NCBI GenBank assembly: GCA_037042915.1
Contig: CM073193.1
Location: forward strand, 8,308,001 to 8,372,000
DNA length: 64,000 nucleotides
Direction: 5' to 3'
Source: Auricularia sp. M13
Lineage: Eukaryota > Basidiomycota > Agaricomycetes > Auriculariales > Auriculariaceae
The notes under the pieces are model-generated. The model was given only the letters and a program-made list of their open reading frames with translations. It had not been told where the DNA came from and ran no database searches. The translations under genes were made by a program, and so were the position numbers. This document shows positions 1 to 63,900 of this stretch, piece after piece (position 1 is the first letter of the stretch; every line of letters begins with the position of its first letter).

Positions 1-1410
1 GTGGCGCACTGACGCGTCACCCTGGCCAGCGACTCTCCACGGCCGACGCTTCCGCCCCGTCGACGATTGCACCGGACTCCGCCACGCTCGCCTCTGCATC
101 GCTCGGCGTCGCACTGGGACTGTACAGGTCACATTAAGCGAGAGGTTGCGGCTTGGCCCGGGAAACGCAGCCCCCGCACGAGGGCACGATCCGCCGTCCG
201 CCGCCGTTCCAGATGGCGCCCGATGGAAGCGTGGTCGGCGACAGTGGTTGAACAGAAGAACTCTGGCTCTGCATTGCGTGCGAATGGCTCTCGTTCCCGC
301 GCAGCCAGGCTCGGGCTTCCACGACGAGGTCAGGTCACTGCCGAATCCCGCCCGAGGCACGCGCTATCGCTTGAAGGAAAAGTCGGGAATGGGTGTGGAT
401 TGGTTACGGGCTCGATGCGCCCGTCGCGATCAATCACTGCGCGGGGCCGGGGGCGACGCAAGAAGAGCGAGGAAGCGTAGGAGGGCCGGAGCAGCAGTAG
501 GCGGCCGATGAACCGCGAGCGAAGCCGGAGACACTGCAAGAGCGATGGGCAGTTCCATCCGGGTCATTTCCAAACACGTTCCGAGCACAATCTGCGCGGA
601 AGAAGCTTGTAAGCAGAAGGAGTGTGTGTCATAGGATGGAAGAACAATACTGTGTCAACCAGCGCAGCTACTTTGCGCATCAACACGACAAGTTCTTCGT
701 CAAGCATACGAGCCTCCTTCTCGACATCCTCTAGCGAAACCGCAAAGAGCGCCTGTTTTGGGCGTCGTCGCGCTATCGAGACATTCCAAGTCCTCGGTAA
801 TCGTGCAAATTGTTCACGGATAGGCAGTGCCTGCTGCTTGACGAAGCGCGCCACAAATGTGTGCTATATCCCTCCAGAATCAATGACCGGTTCGTACTGG
901 GACGATGCTGTGACCAGCCTTGAGCGGTTCGGGCGCGCGCGGCGGATGAAGAATTTGTCGGCGCTGTGAACGAAGGCGTTGCCGTTGTGCTTGAAGTTGG
1001 CGAGGACAATGCCGTACACGTGGTGTATACAGTCAGCGCGGCGGCGTCTGACATGGGCACCTTCGCGGACGACGACACAGGCGAGGTGGAGCTGGCGGAC
1101 GGCGGCCGGGTCAACGTCGCGCGTTCTGGAGATGAAAAAACGTCGATACACAGTCACAGCGTCATGTCGCGCGGGCGCAGCAGTCCAACGCCGAGTCGTT
1201 GCATCGATTCTTGAGACTTGACGATGGGCTCGGCGACAGAGACAGCAGGAGCGCCTTCGCGGGAGTCTTTATGGCTGCTGTTGTGAGATCGTTGGCAACA
1301 GCAGCGTCAGCCTGGCGGAGCGCCTCAGTGATATGTCGCGCCCATTGTCGGTGCGTCAACGAGAGGAAAAGTGAAGCATCCAGGTTGGAGGTCAAGTGCC
1401 GAGCGTCGGA
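1..1410 (-). pseudogene. Decayed, internally deleted copy of the SUN-domain (Slp1-type) gene
   Basis: Read on the minus strand, this stretch matches pieces of the intact SUN-domain gene at 59817-62290 in the same order. Near 1180-1240 it has SPSPSSSLKNR, matching SPSPAPSLKDR of the intact exon 1. At about 900-1110 it has the Thr/Ser/Pro linker. At about 650-850 it has VEKEARMLDEELVVLMRKVA, the counterpart of the coiled-coil end. Near 400-450 it has SSLFLRRPRPRAV against SSLFVQRPRPRVV, and near 80-130 YSPSATPSDAE against FSPSPTPSDVE. The sequence that encodes the SUN beta-sandwich core is missing between the first two blocks. Several frame changes and stops lie between the blocks. The intron before the last exon is still present, so this is a DNA-level duplicate and not a retrocopy. 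The left end is cut by the window. Confidence 0.75.
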
Positions 1411-4274
1411 GTTGGCACGTTGCTCGCATCCTATTCAGACCATGCCCTGCCGACCCCAGATTGCGCACTGGGCGAGCTGTCGAGGTCGACATTGGCCGCC
1501 AAGGCTACGGCGCGTCGAGCGCGACTGCATTATTGCATTTTTTTTTTTGTTTTTTGTTTTTTTTTTGTTTTTAGAAACCTGACGGTTGTGGCCCGTGTTC
1601 CATCAAGAGCGACTTGAACGTCGGCACCGTCGCTCTGCTCGCCTTACCAGCCTGGTTGCCAGACGAAAGCAGTCATTCCCGGCGGTCTGCTGCCAACGCG
1701 GACGGTGCCTGTATGCCGTTCAATTGCGCCGCCAGCTAAGTGCGAGACGGTGTCGGATTCGACGACAAGATCACCGCTGTGCGGCCTTCGTCAGCCCAGC
1801 TCTAGGCCTGCATAACCCGTGACGCCTTGCGCGATGCGGAGCTTCGGTACGTATCTCTGGCCACTCCAGAAGCCGCGAATATGAATGTGTACCTGCACGT
1901 TCTTTGGCGACTCGCCGTCCTTCCCGCGCCGCCGTTGCGTATGCCAGCCTGTCGCCATCGTGTTCGCTGTTCAGGCTGGCCCGCAGCGGCGCTCATCAAG
2001 CGTTCAGTAAATGCCTTCACCTAGCGATCGCGTACTACGGGAGTCACGGGACATTGCACACCACCGATTCGACGCACCATGGACGGCTCATCGCGCAACG
2101 CCACGCCAGAGCCCTTCTCGTCCTCTGTGCGTCCGCCTGTGCGCGAGCACCGAGTCGTGCTCTGGTCATCAGTGGTGCATATCTCGTGGGACCGGCTCAC
2201 GCTGCAATCGGCGCGCGGCGATGTAGCGTCGCATTGTGGTAAGTCAGGCGCTTGCATGCTTGCATTTGTCTCACGTGCGACCTGCAGGCGGTCCTCGTAC
2301 AGGGACATCAGAATGCCCGCGTGTTCCTCAGTCATACGCTGACTACTCGTCGAGCATCCCGCGCCGCCGTCACACTCGTACCAAGGCGCTCACGCGCGGT
2401 TCGACATCATGTTAACGATTCTCCATTTGTGCAGGCCCGCCTTCGCTCAGAGATCGCGCTCGACGAGGACCCGCGGACCACGCGCGCCAGCATGACAATT
2501 TATTTCGCTGTGATCTATCTGGCGCCCGGGTTCGGCGGCCAGATATCAGCGATGCTGAGCGTCGGTGCGCGTCTTTGGTTATTCCAATCTCGCCTTGCGG
2601 CTGTGAATACCTGCTCATCCCTCATTTATACGCGGCCCGCTCACCGTACGTTCAGCGCCGCTGTCGCCTATCGTACCAATGCTCCGCCACCAATCCGTTC
2701 CTGTTGCCATCATATTCTCCGTCCATGCTGCTCGCTCATCGTCGCACATCACCCATTCGGCGCGCATCTTGGACGACCCCGTTGCGGAGCTCGCCGTCCA
2801 GCTATCAAGTGAGCTCGCCGTCCGTCAGGTGTGGGAGACCGTGCGCTGACCCGGGACTACGAGCGCGCATCACTTGTGGATTGGCTCGCGCTGCAACGTG
2901 CGTCGCGTCGTGGCAAGTCAGGTGTTGCATTTTTTTTTTTTTGCCTTTGTATCTCACGCGCAACCGCAGGAAAACGCAGGCGATTCTCGCAGCAACAGTG
3001 CGCATGGTCGCCCACTCATTTGCTGATGGAATTCAGAGCGCGAGACTAGTGCGTGCCCTAAGCATGAACCACCACTGGCAATGTCTAATCATCAATCTCG
3101 TCTTGCAGCGGAGACAGCGCGTATCGATGCCGTGCAGATGTCGAACGCGGGAGGAAAATTGGTATTATTGTGCGCTTCTAGGCTGCTGGAATGCATGCGA
3201 AGCTTCGAGTTGACCGCATTCAGGTGACCTTGTGTTTTCACGCGCACTAGGCGACGTCGAGGTCAAGATGACCATTCTCGAGTCGTCGCGGCCGACTAGA
3301 TGGAACATTGCACGATCTCGCGGAGGATGACGACTAATCTGTGTGCGCGTGCGATGGCGCTGCAGCGTGTTGCTCTCCATCCCGAACACAGCGAGTGCAT
3401 GGGCTATAGCCGCTGGCCGTGTCATCGTCGCGCCGCAGGTCGAGCTGCCGAGCATCGTTCCATGCCGCGCAGTCGCCTTCGGCGCGCCTCCGGCTCCACG
3501 GGACGTACGATGAACGGGCTATGAGCGGAAGATGAAACCAGTGGCAGGCCGACCGTGAGGTGCGCAGCCCGAGCCCAACGACGATAGCGAGCCTCGTATG
3601 CGAGGACAAGGCTGAAAATGCCTACAGTGTGGTCGGCAGTGCAGCGCGAGCCCGCCGCCTGGAGACAGCCGTGCTAGAATGCCGTGCGTAGGAGAATTCG
3701 TACCACACTTGCGAGGTCGGCAACAAGGAGAGGATTGCGCCGCTCATTGGTGCGACAGCCATCCGCTTCCCTTGCACATCGGACGGCATCGGGCTCTGTT
3801 GCGTCCGTGCGGTGTTTATGTGGCTGGCTCTGGCCGCTTTCTGCGGGTTTGTCCCGGCGGTGCGCAATCGAGGACGCCACAAGCCTTCTCTAATATGTCG
3901 ACTGAGACACTTTTCGCGGCAGCACGCATCTCACTTGAAGCGCCGAGTCCTAAATAGTCCCTCAACCGAGCCGCCGACGCCTGGGGTCACTGGCAGGATG
4001 CGTTCCTGCACCCCAAAAATGCGCTTTTCCGTGATTGGAGTCTTGTCTTCTCATTCGGCGGGACGTTGCACTGTGGAACGGTGGCCGTGTCTTCGCCAGG
4101 GCTCGCGGCTCCGGAATTGTATCTATCCCATTCCGTCGTGTTTGCACATCGGAACTGTCGCGCTTGCCCGGGTTCGCTACTCGCGCGTGCTGTTGCAAGT
4201 GCGCGCGGCATGCAATAAAGGCAGCGCTTCAACGCCGCACTGTTTTGGCGAGCTGCTTGCTGCTTTCCCCTCCC
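1411..4274. other. No supportable gene; decayed or non-coding stretch
   Basis: No reading frame here resembles a family I know. There is an impure T-run at about 1539-1573 and a T12 run near 2928. Two segments, about 2190-2290 and 2875-2975, look like diverged copies of each other: both have a CTGCAA core, then GYAAGTCAGG, then a CTCACGYGCRACCKGCAGG-like end. Intron-like signals occur but no long exon can be joined. The last few hundred bases should hold the promoter and 5' leader of the DUF2235-WD40 gene that starts at 4275. The frame stays open upstream of that ATG to about 4035, so a somewhat earlier start is possible. Confidence 0.4.
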
Positions 4275-7200
4275 ATGTCGCGCCCTCCTTCGCCTCCATC
4301 GAGAAACGTTCTCCAGGCTGACGCAGCGCCGTCCGCGCCTGCACCTACGACCACTGAGACTGCGCTGCCAATGGTTACTGAACCTGCAGGTCTGGTGGGA
4401 ATAAAACCGAGACGTTCAAGAGATCTGAGGGACACGACGAGTAGCTCTAGTTCCCTCCGCGACACGGACGATGTGCGCGCCGGAACAGCCCCGCGCGCGG
4501 CTCCGTCTGTCACTGCTGCTCCAGCTCCGCCTGTCGATAGTGTACCACCAACAGGACCCGGTCCCTCTCGCGAGCCGAAGACTGCAGCGTCAGCACCAGA
4601 TCCCCCAATCTGTCCGAAGTGCGGGAGTGGCGGCAAAGGGAAGCGGAATCTCGTCGTCTGCATCGACGGCACGTCGAACCAGTTCAGCAAGAAGGTCCGC
4701 TCCCGCGTCCACGCTCAGAATTACGTCTGATATATGCTGATTGACTCACCCAGAATACCAACATCGTCGAACTCTACAGCCGGCTCGTCAAGGATGGCAT
4801 TCAACTCACGTTCTACAACAGCGGGATTGGGACCTATGCGAAGCCGAGCTGGAAGTCGATGAGCTACCGCAAGCAGGTCATCGCCAACAAGTTGGACCTT
4901 GCTTTCGCACTGTGCGTTTTCGATCGAACTCACCGCTTGATATGAACTAATACCTTGCAAGCCGATTCGAGAAGATCATCATCAGTGCCTATGCCTGGCT
5001 CGTCGATAATTACCAGGAAGGCGATAGGATTTTCCTATTCGGTGCGCAACGCGGGAATCCTTGACGCACCGCTTACGCTCCGAGGCAGGGTTTTCCCGCG
5101 GCGCGTACCAAGTTCGCGCGCTGGCAGCGATGATCGAGACTGTTAGTCCATTCATATCTCTGTCTTCGACGTTTCTCATTCGTACCAGGTCGGTCTCCTC
5201 CACAAGGGAAACAATGATCAGATTCCATTGTGAGTTTGCTGATGCAGGCGTTGCCAAATCTGATTCCACCAGCGCATACGAGCTCTACGCTGCTTCGGGA
5301 AAGGACGATGCACCGTCTTCGACGCTCATAGAGCGTATTACCCAATCCTCTTGGGTGCGACGTGTTGTGTCTCAGACCAAGTCCATGCGTCGGAAACTTC
5401 ACGACGAGCTCGCCAGCGTTCTCCCTCGGAGCAAAGACAGAGAAGCAACAGTCATTGAGGGCGAGGCTGCGCCGTCCGTTCCCTTTCCTGCCTCGCGGTG
5501 GCGTGGGAAAATGCGCAAGGTCTTTGGAAAAATGTCCGCAGACAGGCCTCGTGAAATCCCGCGCCCGAAACCTCGCGCGGCGAAACCTCGCGCGGCAGAG
5601 GCGAGGCTGAGCTCGGACTGGGATTATTGGACTTTACAGCAGCGGTTCAAGAATACATTCTCCCGCGAAGTCGGTGTCCATTTCGTTGGCGCATGGTGGG
5701 TCCTGGTATGCTGATGGCGCTGTTCATTTCTCATACCTAAGCAGGGATACGGTTTCCTCGGTTGGGTTTATCAGAGACAAGACTCTGCCAGGAACGACGG
5801 ACGGCATGCAGTCTGTGTGCTACTTCCGCCATGCCCTCGCACTTCACGAGTACCGTGTCAAGTTTCTGCCTGAATACGCGAATGGGGGTGATGGTCCCGA
5901 CGAGCATGCTACTGTGCCTCAGGGTGGAAGTCCGCCGCATACCAAGGAAGTCTGGTTTACGGGATCCCACTCGGATATGTACGTAGATTTTACACTGTTC
6001 CTATGACAGGTTCTGACGTCTGTGGCATGATAGTGGGGGTGGAAGCTCCGCAAACAGAAGGCTTGACCTGTTCGGGCCATCACTGCGTTGGATGTCGCGG
6101 GAAGCCACCATTGCCGGGCTGAAGTTCGAGGATAAGCAACGCCACTGGGCTAATGGTCGTGTCTCGCAGTCAATGACTTCGATTTGGAAAGTCATTGAAT
6201 GCTTGCCCATCAAGCGACTGTCCTACAAAGGCCCACACTCTGTCTCATGGTGGTGAGTCCGTCGCGCCCATTGACGATTATATTTTGACTCTGGCGTCAG
6301 GCCACACGTCTGCGCTGATCGTCGCATCCGGCCAGGCCAGCTTGTGCATCAGACCGTCTACGAAGAGTGTGAGACAGATGGCCTCCCGGAGTTCGTGCAA
6401 ATGGAAACAGACGAGTACACCATATCGAAAAGGCTCGTCATCTCGTCTCCTGAAAAGATCTGGGAGAGAGGAATACTTTGGGAAGATGAGGATTTATCAC
6501 AACTGGAGACCCTCTTGTTGTCAGGTGTGCACGATGTTGCCTTCCTAACATTCTCTCAATGTTTCATGTAGAGATTGGCCGTCGATCGTTGGGTGAATTT
6601 GCTGGGGAGATAAATGAATCCATTGGCGCGATGGCCCACTTCTGTCAGCAACACAAGGAGACCGACGCTGCCCGCTCCAAAAGACTCTTGGAAGAGCTAT
6701 ATTTATTCCAGAATAGGATCTCATACCGCTCATTCGACTCGCACAATCGCATGATACCACTGAGCACTGTCCTCGGGACGGCGCCTGCGGACACATATGG
6801 TGAGACTGAAATGCGATTCAACAGCAGGGATGCTCATGAGCACGCAGTGACCTATCCCTTCTTCGTTGGCGGTCATAATGATGAGGTCTCTTCTCTTGCG
6901 TTTCTGTCCCCGCAGCTGGTTGTGTCCGGCTCATGGGATCGCACCCTTCGCATTTGGAATATCGAAACCGGAGAAGCCGTCGGTGATCCGTTGACGGGGC
7001 ACACTGACGGAATCCACTGTGTTGCTGTCTCACTGGACGGCAGTCTCGTCGCGTCTGGCTCCACAGACGGCACCATACGCACGTGGAGGATTGATGCCGG
7101 AAAGTTTGTTGGCGAAGGCCTTGTCATGCAAGCGGACGGCATGAACTGGGTTCTCTCAGTTGCGTTCTCGCCCGATGGACTGCGGATTGTTTCTGGCTCT

Positions 7201-7776
7201 GCGAACGGAGCGCTCCGCATGTGGGACGCTGCGACCGGGCAGCAGGTCGGAAACGCAATGGAGGGGCATTCTGGATCGGTATCGTCGGTTGCATTCTCCC
7301 CGGACGGTGCACGCATCGCATCCGGCTCAAGCGACCAGACCGTGCGATTATGGGATGCTGAGACACTTCAACCTCTCGGTGATCCTCTGACTGGACACAC
7401 GGACTTTGTGTTTTCCGTCTCATTCTCCCCGGACGGCGTCTCTATCGCTTCTGGCAGCGTCGACGAGACGGTCCGAATCTGGAACGCAGACTCTCGCCAG
7501 CTGATGCACACACTGTCAGGGCATACTGACTGGGTCCGTTCCATTACATACTCACCAAGCGGACGGCACATTGCATCAGCTTCAGATGACAAGACAGTGC
7601 GAATATGGGATGCGGTCACGGGAGAGGCAATCGGTGTGCTCAAGGGGCACACCAACTGTGTCAGTTCGGTCGCGTTTTTTCCAGACGGCACGCGGATAGC
7701 GTCGGGATCATGGGACCGAACTGTACGCATTTGGGATCGCATTCCTGTCACGAAGTTAGCTACGGACACGGCATGA
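4275..7776 (+). CDS. DUF2235 (Tle1-like lipase) - WD40 fusion protein, copy A
   Basis: Ten exons close into 1018 aa: 4275-4694, 4754-4911, 4962-5041, 5089-5141, 5189-5229, 5273-5695, 5745-5978, 6034-6252, 6301-6524, 6572-7776. The N-terminal ~120 residues are Ser/Pro/Ala-rich and end in a CPKC motif. The DUF2235 alpha/beta-hydrolase follows, opening with VVCIDGTSNQF. By family knowledge of Tle1 phospholipase effectors, the triad should be Ser222 (GFSRGA), Asp393 (WDTV) and His467 (HSDIGGG); all three are present. From about residue 717 there are seven WD40 blades with HET-E-like repeats (SVAFSPDG, ASGS, TVRIWD). No signal peptide or membrane segment is evident, so it is probably cytosolic. 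Propeller binding that controls a lipase is inference. It is close kin of the gene at 11404-14892 and intact by sequence. The start is the first in-frame ATG that matches the layout of copy B. Confidence 0.85.
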
Positions 7777-8314
7777 ATTGTACAGTACGAGGAGAATGCC
7801 TCATCATTAGATGTCGTGCTTCGCTGTGCTGCAGGGTGGCAGCATTATCTATCTCAGGCCAAGTGATGCCGCGGTGCGCGCAGGGTGAAGCGATAATCTT
7901 GTTCTAGTTCTGACATTGAGCTGCGGGTCTGCCTTGCGTGTTGCAAGCTTCTCACCATTGCTGACTAAGCAAAGCCCTCGAGCAAGAAATTGAAAACAAA
8001 AGTAAGTACAGACGGGGGACACCGCGGGTCAGACGTGAGGTAAGTATTGGGAATTATGATTAAGCTGGGGAAATGGTGGGTAAATCGGTAGGAAGATGCG
8101 GGGCTGGTGGCCGATGCATTCCAGTCTCGTGAGCAAACGAGTCTGCGACAACAGCGATCGTTCTGGTTATCTCTTCTACAGATCTTGCCGTTCGCAATGT
8201 AGTAGTGCAGTTCAAGTGAGCTGGAGCCATGTGTTAGCGATGTATTCCGACCCGTAACTGGTAGTGTAAAACAAGATAGCGAGCGACAACAGGAGCCGTT
8301 TTTGTCTCTAGATT
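7777..8314. other. Intergenic, convergent 3' regions
   Basis: This is the gap between the stop of the DUF2235-WD40 gene A (plus) and the stop of ERG2 (minus). I see no coding sequence of its own here. It should hold the two 3' untranslated regions. Confidence 0.5.
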
Positions 8315-9155
8315 TTAGATCTTGCCATTGAGCAGGTTGCGGATCATCTCGCGGCCGGTGATGCGGACGGTGTGGTAGGCGGAGATGAAGTCGAGCGTGG
8401 AGAAGAGGGCGTCGGCGAAGCCGAAGGGCAGCATGGGCGGGATCCAGCCGCGCGCGTACTCGAGCGCCCAGCAGCCCTCGTGCATCTTGTACTGCTTGAC
8501 GACGCCGCGCGGGAGGTGGTGCACGCTGCCGGCTGGGTACACCTATGTCGCGCGAGCAGGAAGTGAGCGGAGATAAGAAAAGACAAAGCGGAGGACGGAC
8601 CTCCTTGTCAAGGGCGCCTGGTGCAAAGGCCCACTCCTCGCCCTCGAGGATGTTGAAATAGTCGTCGGCCGTGTGACGGCCGGTGTGACCCTCAGTGCCG
8701 AGCGGGGTGCCAAAGATGATGAGATACTCAGTAATGCTGGCGTGAATGAGGTACATGGCGCCCATTGCGCCGCCAGCATTATTGAACACCCACTCGTCGG
8801 GCGTCTGCACCGCGGTAGCCGGCTCCGAAAGCAGACGCACGTTGACCGTCTGCTCGCCGTGCGTCTTTGCGAGCGTGCTGACAATCGTATTGATGACGGC
8901 GCGCGTGTCGTTCGGGTGCGCCGCTAACGCCGAGCGCGACAGGGCGTGCAGCTCCTCGGGGTCGAAGATATACCAGCGGTGCTTGATGGTGTCGAGGTAG
9001 GCGCCGGTGCCGACGAGCACAAAGACGATGCAGGCGAGCGCGAGCCACAGCCTGAGCGGGTCCGCGGCTTTCCTGCGCGCTGCTGGCGGCTTTTTGAGCG
9101 ACACCGAGGGCCGTATGGGGGGCGCGGCGCTGGAGCCCTTGCCCTTGCTCGACAT
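8315..9155 (-). CDS. ERG2: C-8 sterol isomerase (ERG2 / sigma-1 receptor family)
   Basis: Two exons (9155-8601 and 8542-8315) give 260 aa. ERG2 moves the sterol double bond from C8 to C7 (fecosterol to episterol) in ergosterol synthesis at the ER. The protein has a basic, Pro-rich N-terminus and one hydrophobic anchor at about residues 35-55 (LWLALACIVFVLVGTGAYLD). The conserved core follows, including YIFDPEELHAL, EWVFNNAGGAMGAM, GTPLGTEGHTGRHTADDYF and the HLPRG-KQYKM segment. The C-terminal hydrophobic stretch has the GWIPPMLPFGFADALFSTLD signature. The one intron has a GTCCGT donor and splits the frame after DKE. It is divergent from the WBP11-family gene with only 108 bp between start codons. 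It is somewhat longer than yeast Erg2 because of the N-terminus. Confidence 0.95.
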
Positions 9156-9263
9156 CGCTGTGCAGTATGCAAGTGGTACGACGCGAAAGTCGAAAGAGCG
9201 GCGAAACGCGCCGGTGTTGGCCGACGCTATCTCCGCCCGACATCCTGACTCCGACGGCGACCC
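9156..9263. promoter_or_regulatory. Shared ERG2 / WBP11 divergent promoter
   Basis: Only 108 bp separate the two start codons, so both promoters and both 5' leaders must overlap or lie inside the first exons. I see no TATA box in it. Confidence 0.6.
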
Positions 9264-10973
9264 ATGGCGAAGGCGAACCTTAACCCCGCAGAGGCACACC
9301 GTACGCGCCGTGCCTTGCATGCAGTCGCTGGCTAACTCGTTCCTTGAGGCAAGGCGTTGCAGAAGAAGGAGGTCAAGAAGAACAAGGCCGCGCGCAAGAC
9401 CAACCGCGATGCCGCCATTGCCAAAAAGGACACCTTCGAGCTCGAGGAGAGCATCCGCAAGCTGACTGAGCAGGGTATGCGCATTATTATGCGTATATAT
9501 GCAGTTCCAGGCTGACTGTATGCCGCGTAGAGGACGCGGGCAAGCTCTCGGCGGACGACGCGCAGCGGCTCAAGGACCAGCGGTTCGAGCTCGCGCGTAT
9601 AAAGAAGATCAAAGAGGCCTATATCAAGGACCATCCCGACGAGGCCCACAAGGTCTACCGCTCTGCCCCGCGCGTCAAGCAGGACGCACAGGAGGCGCCG
9701 CGCGGACGCGACGGCCGCAAGCTCCGCACGCGCAGGATATTCGACGAGAAGACGGGTCTCCCGCGGCATCCCGAACGCTCGCTGTATTATGACCCGGTTA
9801 TGAACCCATATGGTGTCCCGCCGCCTGGAATGCCGTACGCGGAGCGACGTGAGTGCTTGTGCTTGCGATCGGTACTCTGGCTTATGATGTGCAGCGCTCT
9901 TACCGGGCGAGGTTGACAGCGAAGCGGAAGATGAGAGCTCAGGTATGCCCGTCCATGTGGTATTAGTATTATTTCTGACCTGTTACAGAGGATGAGCAGG
10001 ACGAGGATGACGACGACGACATTCCCATGCCGCCCGACCATGATCCCGAGCTGGACGACATACCCATGCCAGAAGGGCCGCCTCCCGGCGCAGAGGACGA
10101 CGCTGACTGTAAGCTACTCTTCTCACCATATATCGCGCATAATTCTGACATCTATCAGTCGTGCCGCCATTACCAGACGGCCCGCCGCCGCTGCCTTCAG
10201 AACCGCCGCCATTACCGCCCGCTGCTCCGCCATTACCGCTGAGTGCACCGCCGTTACCTTTGGGCGCACCTCCAGGATTCATCCCGCCCCCGCCGCCGGG
10301 CGGTCCGCCCGTCTTCCAGCAAGGATTTGTCCCTCCCCCGCCGCCAGGCTTTCCACCTGGCGCACCAGGGCTCATCCCACCCCCGCCGCCAGGCGGACCA
10401 CCCTGTTTCGCAGTCCCTCCGCCTCCGCCAGGTTTATCTATACCGCCGCCTCCGCCCGGTGGCCCGCCCGGTTTCGCAATACCGCCCCCACCCCCAGGCG
10501 GGCCGCCTGGCTTCGCGATACCGCCACCTCCGCCTGGCGCGCCGCCTTACGCGGCGCAGTACTACCCTCCTCCTCCTCCGCCTCTATCCGCGTTCTACGC
10601 ACAACCGCCGCTCCCTTCTTCTGCCCCGCAAGCCCATACACACTCACACGCCAACCCACCTCTCCCTCCTCCCGCTAACACACGTCCCCCACCCGCGCAC
10701 ACGCCCTTCATCCCCCCGCCGAGCGCGCACCTCCCGCGCCGGCCGGACGCGCCGCCCGCGGTGATCGCCGCGGAGCCCGAGCTGCGCGACCTGCGCAAGG
10801 AGGCCACGGCGTTCGTCCCCGCCGCGCTGCGCAAGGCCAAACGCAAAGCCGGTGATGTTGCCGGTGGAGTGGGGAAGGGCGTGGAGGCTGCGCAGGGTGC
10901 GGACGGTGTTGATGAGGCGCTGCGGCCGCCGGATTTGGGGGAGGCGCTGAGGAAGAAGGTTAGGAAGGAATAG
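9264..10973 (+). CDS. WBP11-family pre-mRNA splicing factor, proline-rich
   Basis: Six exons close into 487 aa: 9264-9300, 9349-9474, 9531-9848, 9895-9942, 9989-10108, 10159-10973. The N-terminus (MAKANLNPAEAHR, then KALQKKEVKKNKAARKTNRD) is the Wbp11 domain, a basic helix typical of WW-domain-binding protein 11, a nuclear spliceosome-associated protein. The middle carries an Arg/Lys-rich stretch and a DEKTGLPRHPERS segment. An acidic run (EDEQDEDDDDD) and DDIPMPEGPPP, as in WBP11, follow. About 200 residues of Pro/Gly repeats of the PPPPPGGPP type then make WW/SH3-type ligands. The C-terminus (LRDLRKEATAFVPAALRKAK) matches the conserved WBP11 tail. It is divergent from ERG2. Confidence 0.85.
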
Positions 10974-11403
10974 GGCGATGGGATGGGAGTATCTGAACGG
11001 ACAGAAGTGTGCGGTTCAATTAGAGGTATTACTGCAGCGATTCATGATCAAGGTTGATATGCGACTCGCACAGCTGACAGCGTATTAACATTTCAGGTCT
11101 GAATCTGACCTTTCGAAGATTCCTCGTAGTCGCATTGGCGATGCGTGGACAGGCGCTGTGCGCTGTGTCAGTCTACAACCTCGCGATTCCGCGCTGTCTC
11201 CGACGAGTTGTTCTCTGCGTCCGTTATGTTCGCTGATCGTTGTTCATAACTTCCGAGTCATTCTCCCGACTGAACAAAGGCACCGCAAGGCTGCGGTCTT
11301 CGAACCATACTTACTAGAAACAACGCACTGCAGCGTGTTTGTCCCAGCTGTAATACTGTATTCTCCCTGCCACTACGCACGCGGAATCGCTGGGGCACAT
11401 GCG
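10974..11403. other. Intergenic, upstream of DUF2235-WD40 gene B
   Basis: This is the 430-bp gap after the WBP11 stop. It must carry that gene's terminator and the promoter of the next gene. The reading frame of gene B is open back to about 11158, but the residues there show no likeness to gene A, so I keep the ATG at 11404. Confidence 0.45.
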
Positions 11404-14400
11404 ATGGCAGCCGCTGCAGTTTCTTCTTCGCTATCACCTTCTGCGATGTCGACGGAATATGCAGCTTCAACAGCGCCGTCTAACTTGCACTCTGTGCAGA
11501 TGCCTGCTCCGCCGGCGAGCGCGGCGGCGCCTGCAGCATCAACTCAGCGGGAGACCCAAACCACAGCTGGCCAGGCTGCGGGGGCGACAGCGCGAGAGCC
11601 CTCGACATCTCGAGAGAGCCCGAGGCGCCTATGCCCGAAGTGCAAGAGCGGCGGCGGCGGCGCAGGTGCGCGCAACCTGGTGGTGTGCATCGACGGCACG
11701 TCGAACCAGTTCAGCAGGAAGGTGCGTTTTGCTTCGCGCTTGCAGACTCCACCCAGTCCGCCGATTGACTCACTATTTTCGCGTGAACCCTGACTTGCAG
11801 AATACGAACGTCGTGGAGCTCTACAGCCGGCTCGTCAAGGACGGCACGCAGCTCACGTTCTACAACAGCGGCATCGGGACGTACGCCAAGCCGAGCTGGA
11901 AGTCCTGGAGCTACCGCAAGCAGGTGCTCGCCAACAAGCTCGATCTCGCTTTCGCACTGTATGTTATCATTACCAGCCCCATTCGCCGCTCGAGATGCAC
12001 TCATACTTGTACTCGTACTTGCTTATCCCGAATTCCAAAGCCGATTCGAGAAGATTATCATTAGCGCGTACGCGTGGCTCGTCGATAATTACCAAAAGGG
12101 CGACCGCATTTTCCTGTTCGGTCCGTTGCGTTGCATGTTGACGCGCGACTTGCGACTGACGTGCGCCAGGCTTCTCGCGCGGCGCGTACCAGGTCCGCGC
12201 GCTGGCGGCGATGATCCAGACCGTTGGTTATTCATTCTGTCTTCCGTCTTCGCCGTTGCTCATGCTGTTGGCACTATAGGTCGGTCTCCTTCATAAGGGG
12301 AACAACGACCAAATTCCCTTGTGAGTTTACATTTACAGATCGACATGTTATTGCCCAGATCTCATCGTCCCCGCAGCGCCTACGAGCTGTACGCGGCTTC
12401 GGGAAAGGAAGACGTACCGTCTTCGGCGGTCATAAACCGGATGAAACGGTCGCAGTGGGCGCGGCGCGTCGTCTCCCACACAGAGCACGTGCGGCGGAAA
12501 CTCCAGGACGAACTCGCGAAAGTGCTCCCTCGCCAAAAAGCAGCGGGAAATGTCACGATGAATGAAGGCGCCGCGGCGGCGGCGACACCAGAGTCCGCAC
12601 ACTTTCCCGCCTCTCGCTGGCGCGGCAAGCTACTCAAGGTCTTCTCCGAGCTCAAAGACAAGCCGCGTGCGATCCCGCGCCCGAAACCGCAGGCGTCCGC
12701 CCAGAGCCGGGATTGGGACGAGAAGACTCTGCAAGAACGATTCAAGGACACGTTCTCGCGCGAAGTTGGGATCCACTTTGTCGGGGCTTGGTGCGTCCCC
12801 CGCGTTGCACTGCGATGCTGCTTCTGATGAAAATTTTTCTCACTCTCATTAATGCAGGGATACCGTCTCCTCGGTAGGTTTTGTGAGAGACAAAACGCTG
12901 CCCGGGACGACGGACGGCATGGACTCCGTGTGCTACTTCCGCCACGCCCTCGCGCTGCACGAATACCGAGTCAAGTTTCTTCCCGAATATGCGAATGGGG
13001 GAAACGGCCCCCACCCGTTCTCTACACAGTCAGAGTTGGGCGGACAACCTCATACGAAGGAAGTTTGGTTTACGGGATCTCACTCGGATATGTATGTGGC
13101 ACTGTCTTATTGTCCCATAACTCCTACTCTCACTGACGCCGGTGGCTTCGTTAGTGGAGGCGGCAGCTCGGCGAATACAGCGCTGGATAAGTTTGGACCG
13201 TCGCTTCGCTGGATGTCGCGCGAAGCGACGATCGCAGGCTTGAAGTTCGAGGACCGGCGACGCGAATGGGTTACGGGCCGTGTGTCGCAGTCGATGACCT
13301 GGGTCTGGCGGCTCATCGAGTGTCTACCCGTCAAACGGCTCACATACAAAGGGAAGCACTCTGTCTCTTGGCGGTGCGTACACACTGAATATCGAGCTTG
13401 CGGCATCTGACTGTGACTTCAGGCCGCATTTCTGCGAGGACCGCAGCATCCGCCCGGGCCAGCTTGTCCATCAAACCGTCTACGAAGAATGCGACACTGC
13501 TGGGCTTCCGGATTTCGTAGAAATGGAGCCGGACGAGTACACTACAGCCAAAGCCTTCATCATCTTCAATCCTCAAGAGATCTGGGAGAAAGGATTACTG
13601 TGGAAGGCCGAAGACCTATTGCAGCTGGAGACCCTTCTGTCATTCGGTACGCAGAGCTTTACATTTCTCAGGTTTATCTCAGCTTTCCTACAGAGGCTGG
13701 GTGCCAGTCACTAGATGATCTCGCTGTGCAGATAAATCAATCTATTGGCGAGACGGCTCGCTTCTGGCAACAGCACAAGGAGACCGACCGCGCGCGCTAC
13801 AACAAGCTGATGACGGAGCTATCTTTATTGCAAGATCGGATATCTTACCGTTCATTCGACGTGCAAACTCGTATGGCACCGCTGAGCCAGTCTCTCGGCA
13901 TTGCATCTACAGATAAATTTCGTGAGTCGAGTATGCAATATGGCTCCAAAGCGACTCACAATGATACAGCGACGTACCCATTTCCGCTCAAAGGTCACAG
14001 CCGTTCCGTCCGATATGTCGCGTTTCTGTCCCCACAGCTGGTGGTGTCCGGTTCGATCGATGACACTCTTCGCGTTTGGAATGTCGAAACCGGCGAAGCC
14101 GTCGGTGACCCATTGACCACGCATAGTGACTCTGTCAACTGTATTGCTATCTCGCCCGACAGCAGCCTTGTAGCCTCCGGCTCCGACAACCGTACCATCC
14201 GCACATGGAAGTTTGCCTCAGGCAGATTTGTTGGCGAAGGGCTTGTCATACAAGGAGACGGTATGGGCGACGTTCGCTCCGTTGCGTTCTCGCCCGACGG
14301 CCTGCGACTTGCTTCTGGTTCGTCGGACGGAGCTCTCCGTATGTGGGATGCCGCGACCGGGCAGCAGGTTGGACACGCAATGGAAGGGCATTCTGATTGG

Positions 14401-14892
14401 GTCTGGTCGGTCGCATTCTCCCCGGACGGTGGACGCATCGCATCGGGCTCGCAGGACCACACCGTACGATTATGGGACGCGAAAACACTTCAGCCTCTCG
14501 GCGGTCCTCTCATCGGACATACGGCCGGCGTGGGCTCGGTTGCATTCTGCCCGGACGGCGTCTCCATCGTTTCTGGCAGCGGCGACGCGACGATCCGAAT
14601 CTGGAATTCATACACTGGCGAGTTGCTACACACACTAACAGGGCACGACGATGCTGTCTGGTCCGTTGCAGTCTCACCCAGCGGACGGCTCATCGCGTCA
14701 GCGTCGTGGGACAATACGCTGCGTTTATGGGATGCTGTCACGGGAGAGGCGGTCGGCGCGCTCAAGGGACACACCAGCAGCGCCTATTCGACCGCGTTTT
14801 CCCCGGATGGGACACGGTTGGCTTCAGGCTCGTTTGACGGGACTGTACGCATTTGGGATCGCTTTTTCGCGCTATCTACAGCCACTATATGA
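11404..14892 (+). CDS. DUF2235 (Tle1-like lipase) - WD40 fusion protein, copy B
   Basis: Ten exons close into 979 aa: 11404-11721, 11801-11958, 12041-12120, 12170-12222, 12280-12320, 12377-12790, 12858-13091, 13155-13373, 13423-13646, 13694-14892. Exons 2-5 and 7-9 have the same lengths as in copy A and every intron phase matches, while intron sequences differ. After a shorter Ala/Ser-rich N-terminus come CPKC and VVCIDGTSNQF. The expected DUF2235 triad is present: Ser188 (GFSRGA), Asp356 (WDTV) and His430 (HSDIGGG). A linker with a FWQQHKETDRAR helix leads to seven WD40 blades. The blade surfaces (the residues between ASGS and WD) differ from copy A more than the framework does. Role is unknown; the plan resembles fungal NLR-like proteins with a lipase in place of the NACHT domain. 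Confidence 0.85.
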
Positions 14893-19800: not shown

Positions 19801-21126
19801 ACAGGCTGTTGACCAAGCCTGGTGCCATTGATAAGCATCATCTTGGTAAGTTCATAGAGCTGGATTTGCTTGGTGACATGGCTGAACGAACTGCTGCAGA
19901 AATTCAACTACCCGCCGGCATGACCTATCGTGCTGGGGATTATCTTGCTGTGTACGCCACCTGCTCTTCATTGCCGTCGTTATTCACATCCGTCGCAGTT
20001 TGCCCACAAACCCTGCTGCGTCTGTCAAGCGTGCCCTTTCTCGTTTTAACCTCACCGCCGAGCAAGCGGTACGTGCCTACGCAGGAGCCGGAACTTTATT
20101 CTCATCTCAATCTCAGATAACAATCACGTCGTCGACCCCGACGACTCTCCCGACCCACCGCCCTGTCAACGTGTACGAGGTATTCTCCGGCTACGTTGAA
20201 TTGGGCCAGCCAGCGACGCGCAAGAACATCGAGCAGCTCATTCAGCATGCCCCCGCGTCTGGGGCTACGCACGATGCCCTTGAAGGCCTGCTCGAAAATT
20301 ATGTCCCTGATGTGCTCGAGAAGCGGAGGAGTGTCCTCCACATCTTGGAGTCGTACCCTGACATTGATCTTCCCCTCTCGGCATTCCTCGGCATGCTTCC
20401 TGCGATGCGCGTTCGTCAATACTCAATCTCCTCTTCCCCTCTGTGGGACCCAACTCGGGTTACACTGACACTCGGGGTGCTGCGCTCGCTCGCGCTGGCC
20501 GACGACCGGGAACTATTCCAAGGCGTTGCTTCGACCTTCCTCGCTTCATTGCAGCCCGGAGACCGCGTGCAGGTCGCGGTGCGCCCGAGCGGAGCAGCAT
20601 TCCATCTACCCGCGACGCCGGAGACGGAGATCGTCATGTTCGCGAGCGGGAGCGGCATCGCGCCTATGCGCGGCTTCATCCAGGAGCGCGCCGCTCAGAA
20701 GGCCGCCGGCCGCGCGGTTGGCCGTGCGTTGCTGTTCTTCGGCTGCCGCTCGCCGGACGTCGACTTCTTGTATGCCGACGCGGAGCTCAAGGACTGGGTC
20801 GAACAAGACGTCGTGGAGGTCCGACCTGCGTTCTCGCGCGCGCCCGAGCTGTCCGAGGGATGCAAATATGTCCAGGAGTAAGTCATTCTCCCTTCTGTCT
20901 GCGTGCTTGTCTAATTCTACATAGTCGTGTATGGCACGATCGCGCGGACCTCATTGCGGCGTATAAGAACGGCGCCAAATTCTACACCTGCGGGTCGACG
21001 CGCATTGCCCTGGGCATCAAGGACGCGTTCATGCGGATGGTAGAAGAGGGCCCCGATCCGCGGTCTCCGGAGGAGTTTTGGGCCGCCATCCAGAACGAAC
21101 GCTACGCGGCAGATATATTCGGTTGA
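16853..21126 (+). CDS. Self-sufficient cytochrome P450-reductase fusion, CYP505 family
   Basis: Twenty-one exons close into 1060 aa, the usual size for CYP505 / P450foxy, the fungal relatives of P450 BM3 that hydroxylate fatty acids near the omega end. In the heme domain I see the I-helix AGHETT (about residues 268-273), the K-helix ExxR (Glu324-Arg327) and the heme loop [10 protein letters not shown] with Cys406. The FMN domain starts at about residue 495 ([11 protein letters not shown]). The FAD/NADPH part carries [46 protein letters not shown] and [10 protein letters not shown]. Exon 9 (18119-18253) ends in AACG followed by GCAAGT, so intron 9 (18254-18321) is a GC-AG intron. Exon 17's acceptor (GTAAAG at 19679) is the weakest junction. 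The gene is convergent with the transporter at 21250. It appears intact. Confidence 0.92.
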
Positions 21127-63039: not shown

Positions 63040-63189
63040 TAGCTTCTCATTTTCCGTTCCACTGCGCCTTCAGTCGACGGCCAGGCTCCGGCGCTCCGCG
63101 CATCCTGTATCGCTTGCAGTATTACCGTTGGTGCTCAAAGAGCCTGCACACGTGCATGTGTCACTGGTTCGGATCGGTCGGTATCGTCT

Positions 63190-63900
63190 GCCATGCCGCC
63201 TGGCCGCTGTCCAGCTCGACCATACGAATCTGGAAGCTTGACGCGGGGAATTTCATGGGGGACGGCCCTGTCATCCGCGCGGACGGCATGCGTGATGTTC
63301 TCTCAGGTGCGTTCTCGCCGCGGATTGTTTCTGGCTCTCGTGATGGAGCTCTCCGCATGTGGGACGCGGCGACGGGACTGCAGGTCGGACCCGTAATGGA
63401 AGGGCATGGCCGTCCCGTATGGTCTGTCCTCGGATGGTGCACCCATTGCATCGGACTCAAGCGACGCGACCGTGCGATTATGGGATGTCACAACATTTCA
63501 ACCCCTCGGAGTCCCTCTAATTGGACATGCGAACGACGTGAATTCAGTTGCATTCTCCCCGGACGGCATCTTTATTGCTTCTGGCAGCTACGATGAAACC
63601 GTCCGAATCTGGAACGCAGACACTCTGCAGCTGATATACACACTGAGAGATCATTCCTACAGGGTTTGGTCCGTCGCATTCTCACCCAGCGGCCGGCACA
63701 TCGCATCAGCTTCGTCGGACGACACGGTGCACATATGGGATTCCGCCACGGGAGAGGCGGTCGGTGTGCTTAAGGGGCACACCCGCAGCGTCTATGCGGT
63801 TGCCTTTTCTCCAGACGCCACGCGGATAGTGTCGGGCTCGGATGACATGACTGTACGTATCTGGGATCGCGTTCCTGTGATGGCTACGAACACGACGTGA
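63190..63900 (+). pseudogene. 5'-truncated third copy (C) of the DUF2235-WD40 gene
   Basis: Only part of the WD40 propeller is left. The likeness to copies A and B begins inside blade 2 (TIRIWKLDAGNFMGDGPVIR), continues through DGALRMWDAATGLQVGPVME, and then changes frame near 63410 where about ten bases are missing relative to copy A (VPYGLSSDGAPIASDSSDAT in the new frame). From there to the stop at 63900 the remaining blades are open: VNSVAFSPDGIFIASGSYDE, VWSVAFSPSGRHIASASSDD and VYAVAFSPDATRIVSGSDDM. No DUF2235 sequence or initiation region is present. The MITE ends about 150 bp upstream. The C-terminal blades could still be translated from an internal ATG, but I treat this as a pseudogene. 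Confidence 0.78.

Follow-up and report, generated by a model that had tools for sequence, protein, structure and literature searches.

The window analysed here, a 64,000-nucleotide stretch of the Auricularia sp. M13 genome (C1:8308001-8372000; genome of 52.1 Mb in 14 contigs), contains two genes, gene 1 (g1) and gene 2 (g2), in which a hydrolase domain of the Tle1-like family (DUF2235, PF09994) is fused to a C-terminal WD40 propeller. Both probably encode sensor-effector receptors without a nucleotide-binding oligomerization domain (NOD), in which a fixed hydrolase would be paired with an exchanged and diversified propeller sensor. Gene 1 (4275-7776, plus strand) encodes 1018 residues and gene 2 (11404-14892, plus strand) encodes 979 residues. 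The original prediction of two intact genes holds: the hand-spliced models are open throughout and match in exon structure, with ten exons in gene 1 (4275-4694, 4754-4911, 4962-5041, 5089-5141, 5189-5229, 5273-5695, 5745-5978, 6034-6252, 6301-6524 and 6572-7776) and ten in gene 2 (11404-11721, 11801-11958, 12041-12120, 12170-12222, 12280-12320, 12377-12790, 12858-13091, 13155-13373, 13423-13646 and 13694-14892), and every intron is GT-AG. From the N-terminus, both proteins consist of a polar Ala/Pro/Ser-rich leader, a CPKC segment and the PF09994 hydrolase, which carries a variable insert; a linker and seven WD40 blades follow.

A domain search recovers PF09994 and WD40 matches in both proteins, with hydrolase scores of 245.6 bits (g1) and 248.1 bits (g2) against a cut-off of 27. 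The domain spans 4644-6097 in gene 1 (residues 124-491; PF09994 match at residues 124-493) and 11671-13218 in gene 2 (residues 90-454), on the plus strand like all the features of the two genes given here; the variable insert of gene 1 covers about residues 258-378. The Ser, Asp and His residues expected of the triad are present as Ser222 (5094-5096), Asp393 (5746-5748) and His467 (5968-5970) in gene 1, and as Ser188 (12175-12177), Asp356 (12859-12861) and His430 (13081-13083) in gene 2. Their columns, within the motifs GFSRG, WDT and GxHSD, align at sequence level with the Tle1 structures 9j3f and 4o5p, and the three motifs occur together in 112 of 120 and 96 of 120 of the homologs listed. 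Structurally, the hydrolase is predicted to adopt an alpha/beta hydrolase fold with Tle1 as its closest match, as folded on a separate homolog (lead sequence P0127; P0123 was set aside as apparently mispredicted). A profile of 64 hydrolase sequences retrieves Tle1 from the PDB sequences, a plain phmmer search of the same sequences with one hydrolase returns no hits, and a fold search with the whole protein gives only propellers among the matches listed. The CPKC motif lies just ahead of the hydrolase, as predicted (residues 113-116, 4611-4622 in gene 1; residues 77-80, 11632-11643 in gene 2), and of the 168 homologs that have a leader, 154 show a C-x(1,2)-[CH] motif within 22 residues upstream of the hydrolase; of the 14 without it, two are places in WD40 sequence and not hydrolase starts. 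This Cys pair (or Cys-His) possibly serves metal binding or lipid attachment. The linker is helical in a predicted model of homolog P0001.

The propellers occupy 6865-7764 in gene 1 (residues 716-1015) and 13987-14886 in gene 2 (residues 679-978). Landmark residues define seven blades in each, and Pfam WD40 stretches number seven in g1 and six in g2. The earlier description of the blades as near-identical fails: within each gene, the identity between blades at positions 1-33 averages 0.49 in g1 (maximum 0.70) and 0.47 in g2 (maximum 0.64), well under the 85% that defines high internal repeat conservation (PMC4986451; this and the other papers cited are used in excerpt). The proposed likeness to HET-E therefore does not extend to the internal conservation of the repeats, and internal homogenisation of the HET-E type is rejected.

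The absence of a NACHT domain, also predicted, is borne out. Before the propeller, PF09994 is the sole match above cut-off: neither a NACHT or NB-ARC switch nor an N-terminal HET (TIR-like) domain was found in this region, a NACHT domain hidden in the linker is rejected, and no protease effector was found, the effector domain being PF09994. A match of the pre-propeller part of gene 2 to known anti-phage proteins is likewise rejected (PADLOC, 0 families). Elsewhere in the genome, NACHT and WD40 matches are found near one another in several places at C10:3.02-3.18 Mb, which suggests a conventional cluster of NACHT-WD40 NOD-like receptors (NLRs).

The array

The neighbouring paralogs anticipated by the original prediction are far more numerous than is visible in the window, and the family is anything but single-copy. 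Both genes belong to an array of about 600 kb on C1 (8.199-8.799 Mb) with 28 exon-7 matches, ten in a left block A (including g1 and g2) and 18 in a right block B; none of the 27 NACHT matches of the genome falls inside it. The same span holds 28 propeller matches at 71-100% identity, 26 of them full length without stops. Block A copies are spaced 10-12.5 kb apart, except for one 35-kb gap and the closer g1-g2 pair (7 kb). Nine of the ten are open, two of these using GC-AG introns, and the tenth, c1, carries a frameshift in its hydrolase part. In copy c7, exon 6 (555 bases) encodes a hydrolase insert longer than in the other block A copies, with an internal duplication by eye. Within block B, five copies (d1-d5, C1:8616900-8737760) have near-identical hydrolase halves about 19-72 kb apart; these differ by 0.3-0.9% among d1-d3 and by 2.6% between d4 and d5, pointing to recent segmental duplication inside the block.

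Related hydrolase genes occur elsewhere on C1 (5.73 Mb) and on C2, C3, C5, C6 and C13, and WD40 matches lie near those on C1, C2 and C3. The idea that the propeller is shared with WD40 genes elsewhere in the genome is rejected: in a search that scored 133 of the 236 candidates (E up to 1e-20), all 28 matches of at least 71% over most of the propeller lie inside the array, and off-array matches reach at most 61%.

Selection on the propeller face and histories of the two halves

Repeat codons 7, 9, 25 and 27 of the Podospora anserina NWD genes are under strong positive selection and positions 8 and 26 are conserved (PMC1805685); a wider set of selected positions has also been published (PMC12222747). 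The four codons were taken beforehand as the prediction for the present repeats. Blade numbering is our own mapping from the GH and W landmarks, which agrees with the published conservation of positions 8 and 26, and in the same mapping the second-tier published positions, once shifted by five, become 5, 6 and 34. Codon tests covered nine block A copies (c1 being left out because its hydrolase part is frameshifted) and five block B copies, with eight of the 28 array copies unread; for c3, c4 and c5 the propeller alignment contained the whole protein, and only the propeller columns were counted. Copies d1-d5 were compared by base and residue differences only. The analysis rests on one genome.

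Ranking the 42 repeat positions by the proportion of nonsynonymous differences (pN) places 25, 7, 9, 6 and 27 at the top in block A and 25, 7, 6, 9 and 27 in block B. At the four predicted hot sites, the ratio of nonsynonymous to synonymous divergence (dN/dS) is 1.94 (1.27-3.14) in A and 1.77 (1.06-3.21) in B, against 0.29 and 0.31 at the remaining positions (without 5, 6 and 34); measured against overall propeller dS, the hot-site ratio is 3.46 and 3.86. At the positions published for the NWD receptors, the blade surface shows diversifying and not purifying selection. Among 111930 four-position sets, only 2 (A) and 3 (B) do as well, the tested set included, and the top-five set is unchanged in all 14 leave-one-out runs. 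Positions 25, 7 and 6 rank in the top five in each of the seven blades; position 27 does so in five and is sixth in blade 3. Fourfold-site divergence at hot codons hardly differs from that at other codons (0.228 vs 0.192 in A, 0.129 vs 0.150 in B; hot codons contribute few pairs, 101 and 31), and a faster mutation rate at these codons finds no support in the fourfold sites. Residues at the hot sites are 13.0% Trp, 5.9% Tyr and 12.3% Arg, as against 2.6%, 0.4% and 5.9%, and 92 distinct residue sets occupy the four positions among 97 blades. In d1-d5, the differences are once more greatest at repeat positions 25, 6, 27, 7 and 9, and the four published positions, which make up 10% of sites, account for 37% of residue differences.

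The hydrolase core is strongly constrained, with dN/dS for its two parts of 0.04 and 0.08 in A (nine copies) and 0.11 and 0.14 in B. Values for the B leader and insert are rough because models b1, b3 and b5 keep unresolved stops, all outside the propeller: in the insert of b1 (besides the terminal stop), in the leader of b3 and at the linker/propeller junction of b5, where by eye another intron reads through the stop. The two halves also have different histories. Synonymous divergence is 0.28 in the propeller vs 0.61-0.97 in the hydrolase within A, 0.20 vs 0.84-0.86 within B, and 0.46 vs about 2.1 between A and B, and the proportion of synonymous differences (pS) falls sharply near residue 700, where the propeller starts, in B and A-B pairs. 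Hydrolase and propeller trees reject each other (approximately unbiased (AU) test, p = 1.3e-81 and 1.9e-4). Copies c5 and g1 have a dS of 0.08 in the hydrolase and 0.19 in the propeller. For d2 and d3, 5 of 1701 hydrolase-side bases differ, against 81 of 696 propeller bases; for d1 and d3 the figures are 15 of 1701 and 94 of 1095, and for d4 and d5, both open, 46 of 1744 and 139 of 1090. The propellers of d1 and d2 are broken, which fits birth and death.

The exchange of propellers in register between copies would best account for these split histories, to which homogenisation of hydrolases among some copies may have contributed. Tree conflict and divergence support repeat exchange between paralogs for propellers in register, not for single blades. 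Propeller variation seems to arise from exchange of propellers between genes together with substitutions at fixed surface positions.

Homologs and surroundings of the genes

Database searches found at least 555 relatives among 7993 candidates scored, the best named, among the matches listed, being proteins of Auricularia subglabra and Exidia glandulosa. Within the best 120 of the 555, the named sources are organisms that we take to be Agaricomycetes, GFSRG is present in 117, and 94 have at least four canonical repeats; none of these 94 reaches a mean blade identity of 0.85 and ten reach 0.70. In 13 homologs with blade identity of at least 0.65, the positions most variable between blades are 9, 7, 25, 6 and 27, a pattern that is weaker evidence because the same positions are exposed in any WD40 protein. 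A hydrolase search gave 2633 relatives among 6667 candidates, the best 120 of which are PF09994 proteins from mushroom-forming fungi where the source is named. The system had been proposed as undescribed. This stands for its function but not for its architecture, which is common in databases among Agaricomycetes under Pfam-based names. In the literature searched (subscription papers and preprints not covered), no paper joins DUF2235 and WD40, DUF2235 with basidiomycetes leads only to bacterial toxin systems, Tle1 with fungi and WD40 leads to papers on other subjects by title and abstract start, and no title or abstract start among the papers listed describes a DUF2235-WD40 architecture.

In the window, ERG2 (PF04622, 8315-9155, minus strand) and a WBP11-like gene (NpwBP match, about 9330-10973, plus strand, its end set by reading) lie between g1 and g2 and are unrelated to them. 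ERG2-like stretches at 79-89% identity recur in nine other block A units, eight of them partial, and short WBP11-like pieces in three other units, so that the array appears to have grown as segmental copies, by our inference of a segment around the ERG2 end. The sequence upstream of gene 1 (1-4274, unstranded) is part of an array unit, with pieces at 65-92% identity in other units (blastn). The dead copy that had been predicted is a broken propeller fragment of the same family at about 63168-63894 (plus strand; a tblastn cluster in split frames), with 67-68% identity to the gene 1 propeller; no hydrolase match was found for it. A 28-copy array that includes broken members agrees with the proposed birth-and-death evolution. 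An open frame at about 19886-20881 has FAD_binding_1 and NAD_binding_1 matches and by eye is the reductase part of a P450-reductase fusion.

Candidate receptors and their likeness to known systems

The central idea of the original prediction, a sensor propeller and a lipase-fold effector in an NLR-like plan without NACHT, passes the sequence and evolutionary tests: the architecture, the conserved triad positions, the constrained hydrolase core, the nonsynonymous excess on the propeller face and the separate histories can all be read at sequence level. In the mechanism proposed here, a Tle1-like serine hydrolase of lipase fold would be the fixed effector, joined by a helical linker, as predicted on the homolog, to the seven-bladed propeller. 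Positions 7, 9, 25 and 27 have been placed on the top face (PMC1805685), where position 6 presumably lies as well, and the residues at these five positions would form a diversified recognition surface. The varying protein ligand that the propeller may bind could come from a pathogen or a competitor, or be an allelic form of a self protein. On binding, the hydrolase could be released, clustered or delivered to membranes through the linker; it would then cut phospholipids, harming or killing the fused or infected cell. New specificities would come from array copying, in-register exchange of whole propellers and selection at five positions per blade.

Several observations weigh against this interpretation. 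The blades are not homogenised, unlike those of HNWD proteins. In block A the fall in pS is gradual from about residue 500, with no sharp boundary, and residues 1-200 likewise have a low pS (0.21-0.29), which implies other exchanges there too. Position 9 is in the top five in six of seven blades and outside the top seven in blade 1, as is position 27 in blade 2. Of the second-tier positions 5, 6 and 34, only 6 is hypervariable, with dN/dS at 5 and 34 of 0.17 and 0.28 in A and 0.56 and 0.42 in B. Hot codons have a higher dS of their own than codons elsewhere (0.45 vs 0.24 in A, 0.42 vs 0.18 in B), the lower bound of hot-site dN/dS in B is near 1, and counting estimates of dN/dS are biased by recombination and multiple hits. 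Every selection test, moreover, compares paralogs of one genome.

A narrower form of the same interpretation is strict heterokaryon incompatibility, in which the propellers would read alleles of self proteins, as HET-E and HET-D read HET-C, and the hydrolase would kill unlike fusions. The selected positions are those of the NWD receptors and the array shows birth and death, but 28 copies in one array and a hint of expression in mycoparasitism (PMC10269595) fit a broader defence role as well, and so strict a restriction is unlikely. It is improbable that the proteins are secreted or released toxins against fungi, bacteria or animals, with a targeting propeller that co-evolves with the victim and the hydrolase as warhead. 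DUF2235 is listed among bacterial toxin domains (PMC3482391), and an arms race with the targets could equally produce the surface diversity; however, N-termini such as MSRPPSPPSRN are polar, Ala/Pro/Ser-rich and by eye unlike a signal peptide, and intracellular sensors have the same domain order, with the effector at the front and the repeats at the end. Still more doubtful is a metabolic lipase or esterase with a scaffold propeller, amplified neutrally with an ERG2-linked segment and shaped by drift and gene conversion. Segmental copying is indeed evident in the nine other units with ERG2-like stretches, and exchange alone would explain the differing histories of the halves, but drift would account neither for a dN/dS of 1.8-1.9 that falls on the same surface positions in both sub-arrays, where fourfold divergence is ordinary, nor for 26 of 28 propellers being full-length and open. 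An artefact of mis-splicing, assembly errors in repeats or counting bias is very improbable. Arrays are hard to assemble, Nei-Gojobori (NG86) counting and recombination can inflate dN, and in three of the five B models a stop that lies outside the propeller is left unresolved; but splicing is uninvolved because each tested propeller lies in a single exon, 26 of 28 propellers have an uninterrupted frame over their full length, and the same pattern is seen in A, in B, in the five further copies and, for protein sequences, in homologs from other species.

Read as NOD-less sensor-effector receptors, the g1/g2 family offers a concrete set of receptors whose effector is likely an enzyme and whose putative binding surface is mapped to about 35 residues in each protein (five in each of seven blades), along with a natural series of propeller variants on an almost constant effector. 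The chances are evenly balanced that Agaricomycetes possess in it a second diversified class of intracellular receptors, parallel to the NACHT-WD40 NLRs and without a nucleotide switch, in which whole propeller cassettes are swapped across a tandem array onto an unchanged hydrolase and selection drives five top-face residues of each blade to diversify.

Among known systems, the NWD/HNWD proteins of Podospora anserina (HET-E, HET-D, HET-R) share with g1/g2 a C-terminal WD40 propeller, selection at repeat codons 7, 9, 25 and 27, and exchange between paralogs (PMC1805685, PMC12222747). Unlike them, g1/g2 lack NACHT and HET/TIR domains, have a blade identity of about 49% instead of 80-100%, and carry seven blades in one propeller whose blade positions stay in register. 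This suggests that the sites selected in Podospora NWD proteins form a recognition face that fungal sensor propellers have in general, with or without NACHT and high internal conservation. The Tle1 phospholipases of type VI secretion (PF09994; PDB 4o5p, 9j3f, 6sjl) share the hydrolase domain, triad columns and fold, whereas g1/g2 are eukaryotic and have a helical linker (predicted on homolog P0001) and a propeller in place of the membrane-anchoring modules of Tle1 (PMC13133936). NOD-less fusions of effector and repeats are already known for fungal proteases: in the gasdermin-linked protease sensors with WD40, tetratricopeptide (TPR) or ankyrin (ANK) repeats, the effector enzyme is fused directly without a NOD (PMC12881547), the difference being that the effector of g1/g2 is a lipase-fold hydrolase. 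Fungal NLRs with SesB-like or patatin effectors likewise combine a lipase-type effector with a repeat sensor (PMC4986451), but have the NOD domain that g1/g2 lack. In basidiomycete NLRs, effector domains are described as poorly annotated and SesB-like domains as nearly missing (PMC9815663), a place that the g1/g2 family may fill.

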